Shown: positions 34,537-38,246 of the stretch, one piece after another
Layout: each line of letters begins with the position of its first letter
Numbering within the stretch: the first letter of the stretch is position 1
Assembly: GCA_035710515.1 (NCBI GenBank)
Contig: DASTDE010000001.1
Span: 744,001-808,000 of the forward strand
Source: Candidatus Rubrimentiphilum sp.
Lineage (GTDB): Bacteria; Vulcanimicrobiota; Vulcanimicrobiia; Vulcanimicrobiales; Vulcanimicrobiaceae
Length of the DNA stretch: 64,000 nt
Direction of reading: 5' to 3'
Notes under the pieces: model-generated
Database searches by the model: none
Seen by the model: only the letters and a program-made list of their open reading frames with translations
What the model was told of the DNA's origin: nothing
Program-made: the position numbers and the translations under genes

Positions 34537-34659
34537 TACGCTCTCTTTACCCGGGGCACGCTCGGCGCACAATCTTGGCGCGCGCACGCTTGGTTCGCCC
34601 CAGCAAATCTTCAGAACTAATCGACGGCGGTGTTCGTTTCGAACCCAGGAGGAACGCCC

Positions 34660-35265
34660 ATGAAAAATCTGCACGTTGCAGCTCTGGCAACACTCTTTGG
34701 AATTAGCGCGGCGTCCGGCGTCTTTGCTTCGACGACTTCAATTGCCGTCGCGGATCAGGACGATCGAGGCAACGGCCGCAACAATCACAACCGGAACAAT
34801 GGCAACTGGCAAAACCAAAATGGCCAGTGCAATACGAACGGTGGAGTTCGCGGCAACGATAACGACAACGATGCCGACGACAACAACGGTCAAATTCATC
34901 AATTGCCGCAACAAGCGCAGCAGCCTCACGGCCGCGGGCACAGGCGCGGCTGGCAGAACCCGAATAACCCGCACTACTGCGGCTACAACGGAAACTGCGG
35001 CTACAACAACGGCCAGTATGGACAGAACGGTCAATACAACGGCCGGTGCAATGGCAACGGCCAAGGCAACTCGGTGATTCGCGGAACGATTACGTCGGTG
35101 AGCGGCAACCAGGTGACGCTGATGGAAGGCTTCGGCCAGGCCGTCACGATCAACGACCAGCCGGCGCTAGATAATCAGAGCACGGGACGCGTGGTCATCG
35201 GCCGGTTCGTCACGGCGTACGGCTACTACCAGAACGGAATCTTCTACGCGACGTCGATGCAATAG
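34660..35265 (+). CDS. Secreted Asn-rich low-complexity protein with a C-terminal beta domain
   Basis: An AGGAGG ribosome-binding site sets the ATG at 34660 (201 residues). After a signal peptide, residues 30-140 are Asn/Gly/Gln-rich repeats such as NGNWQNQNGQCNTNGG and YNNGQYGQNGQYNG. The last 60 residues form a compact beta domain (GTITSVSGNQVTLMEGFGQAV) ending in IFYATSMQ. The same ending (IFYANSIQ) closes the 45138-45845 protein, so the two share a domain. A strong terminator follows. Confidence 0.75.
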   Translation: MKNLHVAALATLFGISAASGVFASTTSIAVADQDDRGNGRNNHNRNNGNWQNQNGQCNTNGGVRGNDNDNDADDNNGQIHQLPQQAQQPHGRGHRRGWQNPNNPHYCGYNGNCGYNNGQYGQNGQYNGRCNGNGQGNSVIRGTITSVSGNQVTLMEGFGQAVTINDQPALDNQSTGRVVIGRFVTAYGYYQNGIFYATSMQ

Positions 35266-35350: not shown

Positions 35351-35382
35351 TTGACAAATATCGATACAGGTTCTAGTATCGA
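35351..35382 (+). promoter_or_regulatory. arsR promoter with ArsR operator; probable leaderless start
   Basis: TTGACA (35351-35356), a 17-base spacer and TAGTAT (35374-35379) form a strong promoter. An inverted repeat TCGATAC (35361-35367) / GTATCGA (35376-35382), eight bases apart, covers the spacer and the -10 element. The predicted transcription start is 35386, the A of the arsR ATG. This is the expected layout for autorepression by ArsR. Confidence 0.88.
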
Positions 35383-35385
35383 ACC

Positions 35386-35730
35386 ATGTCTCTACGGCGT
35401 TGCTGCCCGCCAAAACGCGTCGCGCGCGCAAACTACGGCGACGAAGCTGCGCTCTTCGCCGCGCTCTCGGACGAGCATCGCCTAGCGATAATCGCCTCGC
35501 TCGCGCAAACCGAGGGCGAGATTTGCGTCTGCGATTTCACCGATTGTCTGCCGCTCAATCAGCCGACGGTCTCCCACCACCTGCGCATCCTACGCGAAAG
35601 CGGACTCGTGACGGGCGTGCGGCGCGGAACTTGGGTGTACTACCGGTTGGCGGCAGATGCAAAACGGCGTTTGCAGCACGTTCTGCGCGCCATCTTCGAG
35701 GGAAAGGTCTCCTATGAACGAGCTTCATGA
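35386..35730 (+). CDS. arsR: ArsR-family arsenite-responsive repressor
   Basis: The 114-residue winged-helix dimer has the arsenic-binding motif around residues 45-50 (EICVCD, as in ELCVCDL) with a third Cys at 54, and the recognition helix QPTVSHHLRILRESGLV. Cys6 and Cys7 at the N-terminus add further thiols. Arsenite binding to the Cys triad is expected to release it from the operator just upstream. Its last 17 bases overlap the start of the Cys-rich miniprotein gene. Confidence 0.94.
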   Translation: MSLRRCCPPKRVARANYGDEAALFAALSDEHRLAIIASLAQTEGEICVCDFTDCLPLNQPTVSHHLRILRESGLVTGVRRGTWVYYRLAADAKRRLQHVLRAIFEGKVSYERAS

Positions 35731-35803
35731 AAAGCAGTGCTGTTGTGACTGCGAGTGTTGCGATTGTTGCGACTGCTGCGCTAGCGCGTGCTGCAAGCCG
35801 TAA
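35714..35803 (+). CDS. 29-residue Cys-rich miniprotein in the ars operon
   Basis: This short frame reads from ATG 35714 to TAA 35801-35803. Twelve of 29 residues are Cys, in the run CCCDCECCDCCDCC, then a later CC. The start is preceded by a GGGAAAGG ribosome-binding site and overlaps arsR by 17 bases; the end overlaps the aquaporin GTG by 16 bases, so it fills the only gap in a fully coupled operon. The size and thiol density suggest a metallothionein-like As(III) or other soft-metal chelator or donor. Known metallothioneins are longer; I recognise no family. It is too short for routine gene calling. Confidence 0.75.
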   Translation: MNELHEKQCCCDCECCDCCDCCASACCKP

Positions 35804-36462
35804 CCTCGGCTAACCCGCTGGCCAAACGCGCCGTCGCGGAAGCGCTGGGCACTGCGCTCTTGCTCGCCGCGGTTGTCGGCTCGGGAATAATGGCCGAGCG
35901 GCTCTCCGGTGGAAACGTTGCCATCGCCCTGCTTGCGAACACACTGGCAACGGGTGGCGTCTTGCTCGCGATCATTCTGACATTTGGCGCGATCTCCGGG
36001 GCGCATTTCAATCCGGCTGTAACTCTGGCGGACGCCTTGCATGGCGGCTTCCGGTGGCGCGAGGTTCCGGTGTACATAACGGCGCAGATCGCCGGCGCGA
36101 TCGCCGGAGTTGCGATCGCGAACGTGATGTTTGCGCAGCCGGTGTTCTTCGCGTCGCACCACGCGCGCCACGGGTTTCCCGTGCTTCTGAGCGAGTTTGT
36201 CGCAACGTTTGGTTTGCTGGCGGTTATCTGGGGCTGCGTGCGGGCCGGGAACAATGCCACGCCCTACGCGGTTTCCGCCTACATCGTGGGCGCCTATTGG
36301 TTCACTGCCTCAACATCGTTCGCGAATCCGGCCGTCACGATCGCGCGCTCGCTATCGGATACGTTTGCCGGCATCGCTCCCGGCGATATCGGCGGCTTCG
36401 TCATCGCTGAACTGGTGGGTGCGCTCGCCGCCACCGCGCTCTTTGCGTGGCTGGCTCGCTGA
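35788..36462 (+). CDS. aqpS: Aquaglyceroporin, MIP family (AqpS-like)
   Basis: The 224-residue membrane channel has two NPA boxes, GAHFNPAVTL (Asn75) and FANPAVTIA (Asn180), with six expected helices and two half-helices. In Sinorhizobium meliloti AqpS replaces ArsB and lets arsenite made by ArsC leave the cell. The position between arsR and arsC with no arsB or acr3 matches that design. The start is GTG 35788, with no separate ribosome-binding site, which implies coupling to the miniprotein. Confidence 0.92.
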   Translation: MLQAVTSANPLAKRAVAEALGTALLLAAVVGSGIMAERLSGGNVAIALLANTLATGGVLLAIILTFGAISGAHFNPAVTLADALHGGFRWREVPVYITAQIAGAIAGVAIANVMFAQPVFFASHHARHGFPVLLSEFVATFGLLAVIWGCVRAGNNATPYAVSAYIVGAYWFTASTSFANPAVTIARSLSDTFAGIAPGDIGGFVIAELVGALAATALFAWLAR

Positions 36463-36839
36463 TGCCCCTCGTGCTCTTCGTTTGCCGCCACAATACGGGC
36501 CGCAGCCAGATGGCCGAAGCGTATCTGCGCCGGTTCGCAGGCGAATCGGTTGAAGTGGCCTCGGCCGGAACGGTGGCCGCCGACAAACCCGAACCGATCG
36601 TGGTTCAAGCGATGAGCGAGGACGGAATCGACATTTCGAGCGCCCGTCCAAAACTACTGGATCCGCAAACAGTCGAACGCGCGGACGTCATCATCACGAT
36701 GGGCTGCGACGTCCAAGGCGTGCCCCGCATCGACGAAGACTGGGGCTTGCCCGATCCAAAAGGCCAGCCGCTCGAGCGTGTCCGCGAGATTCGCGACCTG
36801 ACGAAAGCGAAAGCAAGCGAGTTAGCGAAGCGGCTCTAA
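36462..36839 (+). CDS. arsC: Low-molecular-weight phosphatase-type arsenate reductase
   Basis: I start at ATG 36462 (TGATG overlap with the channel gene), giving 125 residues. The catalytic loop is C8-RHNTG-R14 (a CX5R loop), and the Asp of PDPKG serves as general acid. Cys82 is present in ITMGC, but the third Cys of thioredoxin-type enzymes near residue 89 is missing (DVQGVPRI there). Thus regeneration may use a different thiol, for example mycothiol, bacillithiol or the Cys-rich miniprotein. ArsC reduces arsenate to arsenite. Confidence 0.92.
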   Translation: MPLVLFVCRHNTGRSQMAEAYLRRFAGESVEVASAGTVAADKPEPIVVQAMSEDGIDISSARPKLLDPQTVERADVIITMGCDVQGVPRIDEDWGLPDPKGQPLERVREIRDLTKAKASELAKRL

Positions 36840-38246
36840 GTGCCGCTACTCCCTCTGGCGCGCCGCAAGGTGCACGCGCCGGTCGCCGTGAGCGACCGCC
36901 GAGTTCGCATTGCCAAGTTCGGAATGTACCTGGCCGGCTTCATGGCGGTCGTGAACATCAGCGTGATCTATCTGGCGCTGCCGTCGATCGAGCGCGCGCT
37001 GCATGCCGACATCGCCGATCAGCAGTGGATCCTGAGTATCTATCCTTTAATGGAAGGCGGCTTTACGCTGGCGGCCGGAACGCTCGGCGATCTCTACGGA
37101 CGAAAACGCATAATGGCGGCGATGACGTGGCTGTTCTTGCTCGCCACTATCGCTTGCGCGCTGGCACCTAACACGCCGCTGCTCATCGTGGCGCGCGGTT
37201 TTCAGGGTTTAGGCGGCGCAGCGCTGCTGTCGCTTCCCGTTGCGATCCTCGTGCAGATGCTTCCCGATCCGGCCGACTGCGAGGACGCGATCAAGAATTT
37301 CGCCATGGTAGCCGGCTTGGGCGCCGTGGCCGGACCCGCCATCGGCGGCGTGCTCGTGCACTGGTTCGGCTGGCCGTCCATTTTTTATCTGTCGGTCATC
37401 ATGACGGTCGTTGTGCTGGCTACGCTGCCGGCGACCGAAGAGAGCAAGCGCGATCCGGCGTTGCGCATCGACGGCATCGGCCAGGCGTTGAGCATCCTCT
37501 CGCTCCTGGCGATCTGCTTCGCACTGATCGAGGGCAACGAGCGCGGCTGGCTCTCTCCCGTGATCGTGGGCGCGTTCATTCTTTCCGTCGTGACCCTGGC
37601 GGTGTTCTTGTACGTCGAAGGGCGCGTCGCACAACCGATGATTCACCTGCGCTACTTTGCGGTGCGTGCTTTTAACGTTGCGCTGCTAGTGATCGGCGGC
37701 ATCAATTTTGCGTGGTACGGCGTCATGCTGCTGTGCACGCTGTTCCTGCAAGACGTGCTGCACCAATCCGCGATGCTGGCCGGGTTCTATCTGATGCCGA
37801 GCAACATTGCGTTCTTTTTGGCAAACCAATATAGCAGTGCGGTGCAGAAGCGGCTCGGCGCGCGTGGCATCATCACGGTGAGTTTTATCATCAGCTTGGC
37901 CGGCATGGGTTGGCTCGCTCTGCTCGGAGCCGCCTCGGCAGCGTGGGAAGTTTCGGCCGGCCTGTTCATCGCGGGCATCGGATGGGGATTTGCGTTCACG
38001 CCTGCGGCATCGATGGGAATGGCGGCGGTGACCTCGGCCGATGAGGGATTCGCATCGGGCGCGGAAGCACTCAGCCGTTCGCTCTTCGGCGTTTTCGGAA
38101 TCGCCGTCTTAGGGTCGGTCCTGTCCGCCGGAATCAGCGGCGGCAGTTTTGTCTACGGACTGCACGCTTCGCTCATTGTCTGCATGGGGCTAACGCTGGT
38201 GGTCGGCGTCTTGGTCTACGGTATGCTGCGCAACCGGACGGCTTAG
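36840..38246 (+). CDS. DHA2-type MFS transporter in the ars operon
   Basis: The 468-residue carrier has 14 expected helices, with GDLYGRKRIM and RGFQGLGGAALLSLPVAI as MFS/DHA2 motifs. The GTG start follows the arsC stop directly without a gap. Its location suggests efflux of an arsenic or antimony compound or of an organoarsenical, but DHA2 carriers usually export drugs, so this is inference from context only. It converges with the next gene and overlaps it by four bases. Confidence 0.9.
   Translation: MPLLPLARRKVHAPVAVSDRRVRIAKFGMYLAGFMAVVNISVIYLALPSIERALHADIADQQWILSIYPLMEGGFTLAAGTLGDLYGRKRIMAAMTWLFLLATIACALAPNTPLLIVARGFQGLGGAALLSLPVAILVQMLPDPADCEDAIKNFAMVAGLGAVAGPAIGGVLVHWFGWPSIFYLSVIMTVVVLATLPATEESKRDPALRIDGIGQALSILSLLAICFALIEGNERGWLSPVIVGAFILSVVTLAVFLYVEGRVAQPMIHLRYFAVRAFNVALLVIGGINFAWYGVMLLCTLFLQDVLHQSAMLAGFYLMPSNIAFFLANQYSSAVQKRLGARGIITVSFIISLAGMGWLALLGAASAAWEVSAGLFIAGIGWGFAFTPAASMGMAAVTSADEGFASGAEALSRSLFGVFGIAVLGSVLSAGISGGSFVYGLHASLIVCMGLTLVVGVLVYGMLRNRTA

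Follow-up and report, generated by a model that had tools for sequence, protein, structure and literature searches.

An ars operon of Candidatus Rubrimentiphilum sp. carries, between arsR and the gene of an aquaporin-family channel, a frame of 29 codons of which 12 encode cysteine. Is this frame a gene, where has it come from and what keeps it open? These questions were addressed with a stretch of 64,000 nucleotides of contig DASTDE010000001.1 (positions 744,001 to 808,000, here called the window) and with the corresponding loci of related genomes.

The operon and its cysteine-rich frame

All genes of the operon are encoded on the forward strand. A consensus scan predicts a sigma-70-like promoter (TTGACA-17-TAGTAT, 10 of 12 matches) at 35351..35379, and its -10 region is overlaid by an inverted repeat of 7 pairs (TCGATACaggttctaGTATCGA, 35361..35382) that, judged by its position, is probably the ArsR operator. 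The first gene is arsR (35386..35730; 114 amino acids, ICVCDF metal-binding motif, Pfam HTH_5 4e-14, NCBIfam NF033788 3e-27). The aqpS-like gene of the aquaporin (MIP) family follows at 35788..36462 (Pfam MIP 4e-25), and its stop codon overlaps the start of arsC as ATGA. The product of arsC (36462..36839) is an arsenate reductase of the low-molecular-weight phosphatase type with two cysteines and the motif MGCDVQGVPR (Pfam LMWPc 1e-19; TIGR02689 and TIGR02691 below cut-off). The last gene of the run encodes a DHA2-type MFS efflux protein (36840..38246; Pfam MFS_1 7e-40, TIGR00711 below cut-off). Upstream of arsR lies a gene for a DUF5666 protein with a repetitive middle part rich in Asn, Gly and Gln (34630-35265), and this synteny is kept in a genome of the same genus (G087). 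Elsewhere, ArsR is fused in one frame to an arsenate reductase domain of the low-molecular-weight phosphatase type (259-260 amino acids; loci L128 and L130 of G068 and G070), and the aquaporin genes of four related ars operons appear split, frame-broken or partial (L161 in G003, L160 in G082, L159 in G079 and L162 in G080).

With arsR, an aquaporin gene and arsC in one operon, the locus resembles the aquaglyceroporin ars operons of the Sinorhizobium meliloti aqpS type, in which the channel is the exit for As(III). Acr3 was not found in six of the seven genomes of the genus, including that of the window, and therefore the aquaporin is likely the As(III) exit here too, comparable to AqpS in S. 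meliloti (PMC6205960). The passages of this paper that cover the S. meliloti operon mention no mini-ORF between arsR and aqpS, a difference to the operon of the window; the literature covered, to which the main ArsI papers do not belong, describes no mini-ORF of this kind from an ars operon.

The mini-ORF is located at 35714..35803, starts with ATG and encodes MNELHEKQCCCDCECCDCCDCCASACCKP, with cysteine at 12 of 29 residues. It overlaps arsR (end at 35730) by 17 nucleotides and the aquaporin gene (GTG at 35788, inside the mini-ORF) by 16 nucleotides. Its purine-rich ribosome-binding site GAGGGAAAGG (35698..35707) lies within the 3' end of arsR, at a place where related operons have the corresponding site in front of arsI; the duplex with the anti-Shine-Dalgarno (anti-SD) sequence has -6.7 kcal/mol, and the 5% quantile of random window positions is -6.4. 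An alternative in-frame start (ATG at 35657) would give 48 amino acids, but the frame upstream of the mini-ORF start is closed in the relative G087 and ATG 35714 is thus the likely start. Tandem Repeats Finder identifies a 9-nucleotide tandem repeat (TGCGACTGT, 35750..35780, 3.4 copies, 86% match) that encodes the CC-D/E repeats. The 29-residue product has no match in Pfam and none in NCBIfam, including NF041414 and the metallothionein profiles. The frame, its ribosome-binding site and both overlaps, all proposed by a previous reading of the DNA from its letters only (the sequence-only reading), are hence as described there. Its further statement that no other sequence fills the gap is true for the window; elsewhere, either arsI or nothing occupies this slot.

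To judge whether such a frame arises by chance, all 37,927 distinct start-to-stop ORFs of 10-80 amino acids from the fetched loci were screened for at least 8 cysteines and a cysteine share of at least 25%; these loci were chosen for arsR, aquaporin or ArsI-type genes and the census therefore covers ars neighbourhoods and not whole genomes. ORFs of this kind are present at five loci only, and four of them (the window, G087, G089 and G037) are directly behind an arsR. The fifth (37708) lies within the MFS gene, out of frame with it, and is a chance ORF. The mini-ORF is not a chance frame.

Cysteine-rich short ORFs before aquaporin genes of other phyla were also considered and rejected: each is the C-terminal part of an ArsI, ArsR or ArsM-like protein, taken from an internal start codon. 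Proteins of the ArsM-like or ArsR-like type with tails of Cys pairs just before an aquaporin gene are found in other phyla at three loci (L047 of Bryobacterales, L037 and L083); tails of this kind recur in Ars proteins of different types.

The slot in related genomes and its link to arsI

The relatives are mostly metagenome-assembled genomes, and five operons of the same genus were available for comparison. These form one clade in the trees of arsR, aquaporin and arsC; for aquaporin and arsC, the window branches as sister to (G087,G091),(G089,G086), an order that the arsR tree does not resolve. Proteins are 78-81% (arsR), 82-84% (aquaporin) and 82-88% (ArsC) identical to those of the window. 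The slot itself is far more variable: G087 has the mini-ORF MNDLRDTKECCSDSNCDCECCCCG, G089 has MNDCDCCCCCCCE and G086 has MMVLTDTEERGAGNCCA, which is down to two cysteines between intact flanking genes. In G091 the slot is empty, with the TGA of arsR overlapping the GTG of the aquaporin gene, and here too the flanking genes are intact (81%, 84% and 86% identity for arsR, aquaporin and ArsC). The mini-ORFs differ from one another and diverge very fast, with neither sequence nor length conserved. A search with the mini-protein against 117 genomes of the class returned, apart from the query, a single weak match that is due to chance; it missed the orthologues that synteny identifies and is therefore insensitive for this protein. 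The sequence-only reading had regarded a broken frame between intact neighbours as counter-evidence, and this is partly what the search between arsR and aqpS/arsC uncovered: Cys-rich frames exist in G087 and G089, next to the two-cysteine ORF of G086 and the missing frame of G091.

In about 40 relatives from the class, the slot is occupied by arsI, with an ATG or GTG start that overlaps the arsR stop at -3, exactly as the same-genus mini-ORFs do; at its other end, arsI often shares a GTGA or ATGA between its stop and the start of the aquaporin gene. One of these slot genes was confirmed as ArsI_CadI_VOC by NCBIfam (139.8 bits, cut-off 116). The mini-ORFs of G086 and G087 carry both arsI-type junctions and that of G089 carries the first only, while the mini-ORF of the window has kept the arsI-like position, after arsR and ending on the aquaporin start, with overlaps that have drifted to the 17 and 16 nucleotides given above. 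Moreover, arsI and mini-ORF exclude each other: a clear arsI is missing from all five genomes of the genus that carry the aquaporin operon, and G088, the genus genome with arsI, has neither aquaporin operon nor mini-ORF. G088 is also the only genome of the genus with Acr3 (arsR-arsI-arsC plus acr3).

ArsI proteins end in Cys-rich tails of the type ..HEDTEERD..CC..CC (for example ..VHEDTEERDNEETTCCTSDTEAQRSCCVQ). The G086 mini-ORF contains VLTDTEER, which reaches 20.3 bits on a position-specific scoring matrix (PSSM) of 44 ArsI tails (native range 13.8-30.1), a score reached by none of the 107,013 8-mers of the window, and its alignment to ArsI tails is better than 99.7% of shuffles (0.003). 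It is plainly an ArsI tail by sequence. The G087 mini-ORF (LRDTKECCSD) is borderline and weaker, above 97.6% of shuffles (0.024). The window peptide (shuffle p 0.47, PSSM -8.2) has no resemblance to ArsI tails beyond its cysteine content; like the G089 peptide (0.91), it is too dominated by cysteine for the comparison to be informative. The tail motif [HL]xDTEERD..CC is present in the G086 orthologue, weak in G087 and not seen in the window peptide, and an arsI origin of the window ORF rests on its slot and its orthologues. By sequence this is the weakest link: from position and orthology, we infer that the window ORF is an orthologue of an ArsI-tail remnant. Cys-containing ArsR tails of G062 and G017 were tested as fused ArsI tails and ruled out by their scores (-0.3 and -5.7).

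That in-frame deletions of arsI do occur in this family is evident from a natural example in another genus. Between arsR and arsC, G102 has an arsI with an in-frame internal deletion (locus L173, G102:C19, about 1110-1298 on the reverse complement) that encodes 63 amino acids and lacks the middle (MKTHLSLATV/ERAETCCYAN...VHEDTEERDDAGMPCC...); NF041414 matches it at model positions 85-124.

It is thus highly likely, on the grounds of gene order and orthology, that the mini-ORF of the window is a remnant of arsI that lost the catalytic part and kept the Cys-rich tail. In the ancestor, the gene that follows arsR and precedes the aquaporin gene would have been arsI, encoding the ArsI/CadI C-As lyase (NF041414). 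Its start would have been joined to the C-terminal tail when the catalytic VOC domain was lost in frame, and the CC-acidic repeats of this tail would later have expanded in some lineages. With ArsI/CadI, the mini-ORFs share the slot between arsR and aquaporin or arsC, the start and stop overlaps, Cys pairs with acidic residues and, in the G086 orthologue, the DTEER..CC motif. They differ in having neither the VOC domain nor the catalytic CCYA motif, which makes lyase activity impossible, and the window version has more cysteines. The ArsI chains of solved structure that sequence comparison retrieved have 123-126 amino acids, and their matches stop where the tail region begins; none of these chains extends past the VOC domain and no structure of the Cys tail is among them.

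A probable supply of ribosomes to the channel gene

The mini-ORF starts have Shine-Dalgarno (SD) sequences, with anti-SD energies of -6.0, -8.4 and -11.7 kcal/mol for the three same-genus mini-ORFs in addition to the -6.7 of the window. The aquaporin starts behind them do not: energies are +0.4 (window), -1.7, -2.5 and +0.3 kcal/mol. In the window, G086, G087 and G089, an SD-led ORF thus overlaps an SD-less start, the pattern of a coupling ORF. In G091, which has no mini-ORF, this is reversed and the aquaporin start is placed behind the old arsI site with -7.9 kcal/mol. Because SD sequences are present at mini-ORF starts and absent from aquaporin starts except in G091, we consider it probable that the mini-ORF relays ribosomes to the aquaporin gene, as arsI would have done before. 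Ribosomes would bind to the former arsI site in the 3' end of arsR, translate the mini-ORF and start again on the GTG (35788) that overlaps it. The main reason for the frame to stay open would then be that the aquaporin gene itself lacks a ribosome-binding site. An aquaporin start without SD is also found behind full arsI (L008, L010) and is therefore general to this type of operon and not specific to the mini-ORF; coupling looks like a general rule of arsR-arsI/mini-aquaporin operons.

Possible roles of the peptide

The peptide itself would probably serve as a small thiol ligand for As(III), comparable to the CC pairs in the parent ArsI tail. We find it possible, at a more tentative level, that binding of arsenite is its function. 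Related to this is the proposal, to which we give similarly tentative credit, of a metallothionein-like miniprotein selected for its cysteines, whatever its origin, that would buffer the As(III) produced by ArsC until the channel releases it. Such a role is supported by the cysteine numbers of three same-genus lineages (8, 8 and 12), which are above the 2-6 of ArsI tails, by codon differences inside the repeats that are mostly synonymous or D/E, and by the residue entropy, which is lowest of all six frames for the Cys frame in the window, G087 and G089 (with a narrow margin in G089). Neither arsI nor Acr3 was found in the genome of the window, and thiol buffering could therefore matter. Independently, G037 from another genus has, at locus L167 (G037:C7, 1094-1563), an arsR that is followed at once, with an ATGA overlap, by a 46-amino acid ORF with 12 cysteines (MKLQECFCPGSEARPTAECDTCCRCCCCCASETSCCDQANDRDGSG); the next gene is on the opposite strand, so that there is no gene directly behind to couple. 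No arsI was found in the G037 genome. However, the G037 peptide has no detectable relatives: searches gave many weak matches, and among the loci fetched for the best ones an arsR was present only at G037's own. The absence of the frame in G091 and the two cysteines of G086, both between intact flanking genes, also speak against selection for cysteines, as does a product with no profile match and with neither sequence nor length conserved.

Bacterial metallothioneins such as SmtA (56 amino acids) and PmtA (about 70 amino acids; PMC12193353) are likewise small, have a high share of metal-binding-type cysteines and are linked to a regulator of the ArsR/SmtB type (smtA is controlled by SmtB). The mini-ORF product differs in being about half as long, in lacking a His ligand pattern and any detectable homology, in its location in an ars operon and in its loss from a sister species. 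What stands of the sequence-only reading is a genuine, translated-looking Cys-rich frame, coupled to both of its neighbours (arsR and the aquaporin gene), with a thiol chemistry that fits As(III). Its independent metallothionein gene does not: slot, start overlap, stop overlap and the tail motif kept in the clade make a remnant of arsI most likely. Equally unsupported is a role as electron donor to ArsC, proposed from the missing third Cys of this enzyme; this Cys is absent in nearly all relatives of this ArsC type, whether the mini-ORF is present or not, and hence gives no reason to tie the peptide to ArsC.

A peptide with no role at all is a doubtful but possible alternative. The mini-ORF would then be a neutral leftover of the arsI tail with TGC repeats expanded by slippage, open by chance or for coupling only. 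The tandem repeat is consistent with this, as replication slippage of a 9-nucleotide unit could cause the cysteine expansion, and so are the very fast divergence, the loss in G091 and the near-loss of cysteines in G086. It is less easily reconciled with a frame that is open and SD-led in four of five genomes when the neighbours are about 80% identical as proteins, or with a cysteine enrichment that recurs at the arsR slot but is nearly absent from the rest of the loci examined.

Very unlikely is a polycysteine attenuator, in which scarce charged Cys-tRNA slows ribosomes at the Cys codons and alters expression of the channel gene: Cys-responsive polycysteine short ORFs are known from mycobacteria (first described in PMC4633059; Canestrari et al. 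2020, as cited in PMC9094748) and share with the mini-ORF, which is directly coupled to the next gene, the runs of Cys codons just upstream of an operon gene, but these are leaderless, first in their operons and tied to Cys metabolism, whereas the mini-ORF is the second gene of an ars operon, SD-led and with the promoter before arsR. Stalled ribosomes could not unmask an SD of the aquaporin gene, as this gene has none. The predicted RNA fold does not exceed that of shuffled sequences (z -0.04), Rfam gives no match and the G086 orthologue has only two cysteines.

The explanation that we favour as a whole, and judge rather likely, combines an arsI remnant, a ribosome relay and a probable thiol ligand for As(III). 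A wider reading appears unlikely: free Cys-rich peptides, formed when ArsI shed its catalytic domain and then kept and enlarged as arsenite thiol ligands beside an arsenite channel, may be a new component of arsenic resistance that has arisen more than once behind arsR, in the genus of the window and independently in G037. If the favoured explanation is true, a small Cys-rich gene would have been made by trimming an enzyme to its metal-binding tail, with several stages still present among the relatives: a complete arsI, an arsI with a deletion, a short tail, a tail expanded to poly-Cys and an empty slot. There would also be a concrete reason for so tiny a frame to stay open, the supply of ribosomes to the channel gene, and attention would be drawn to the little-studied Cys tails of ArsI.
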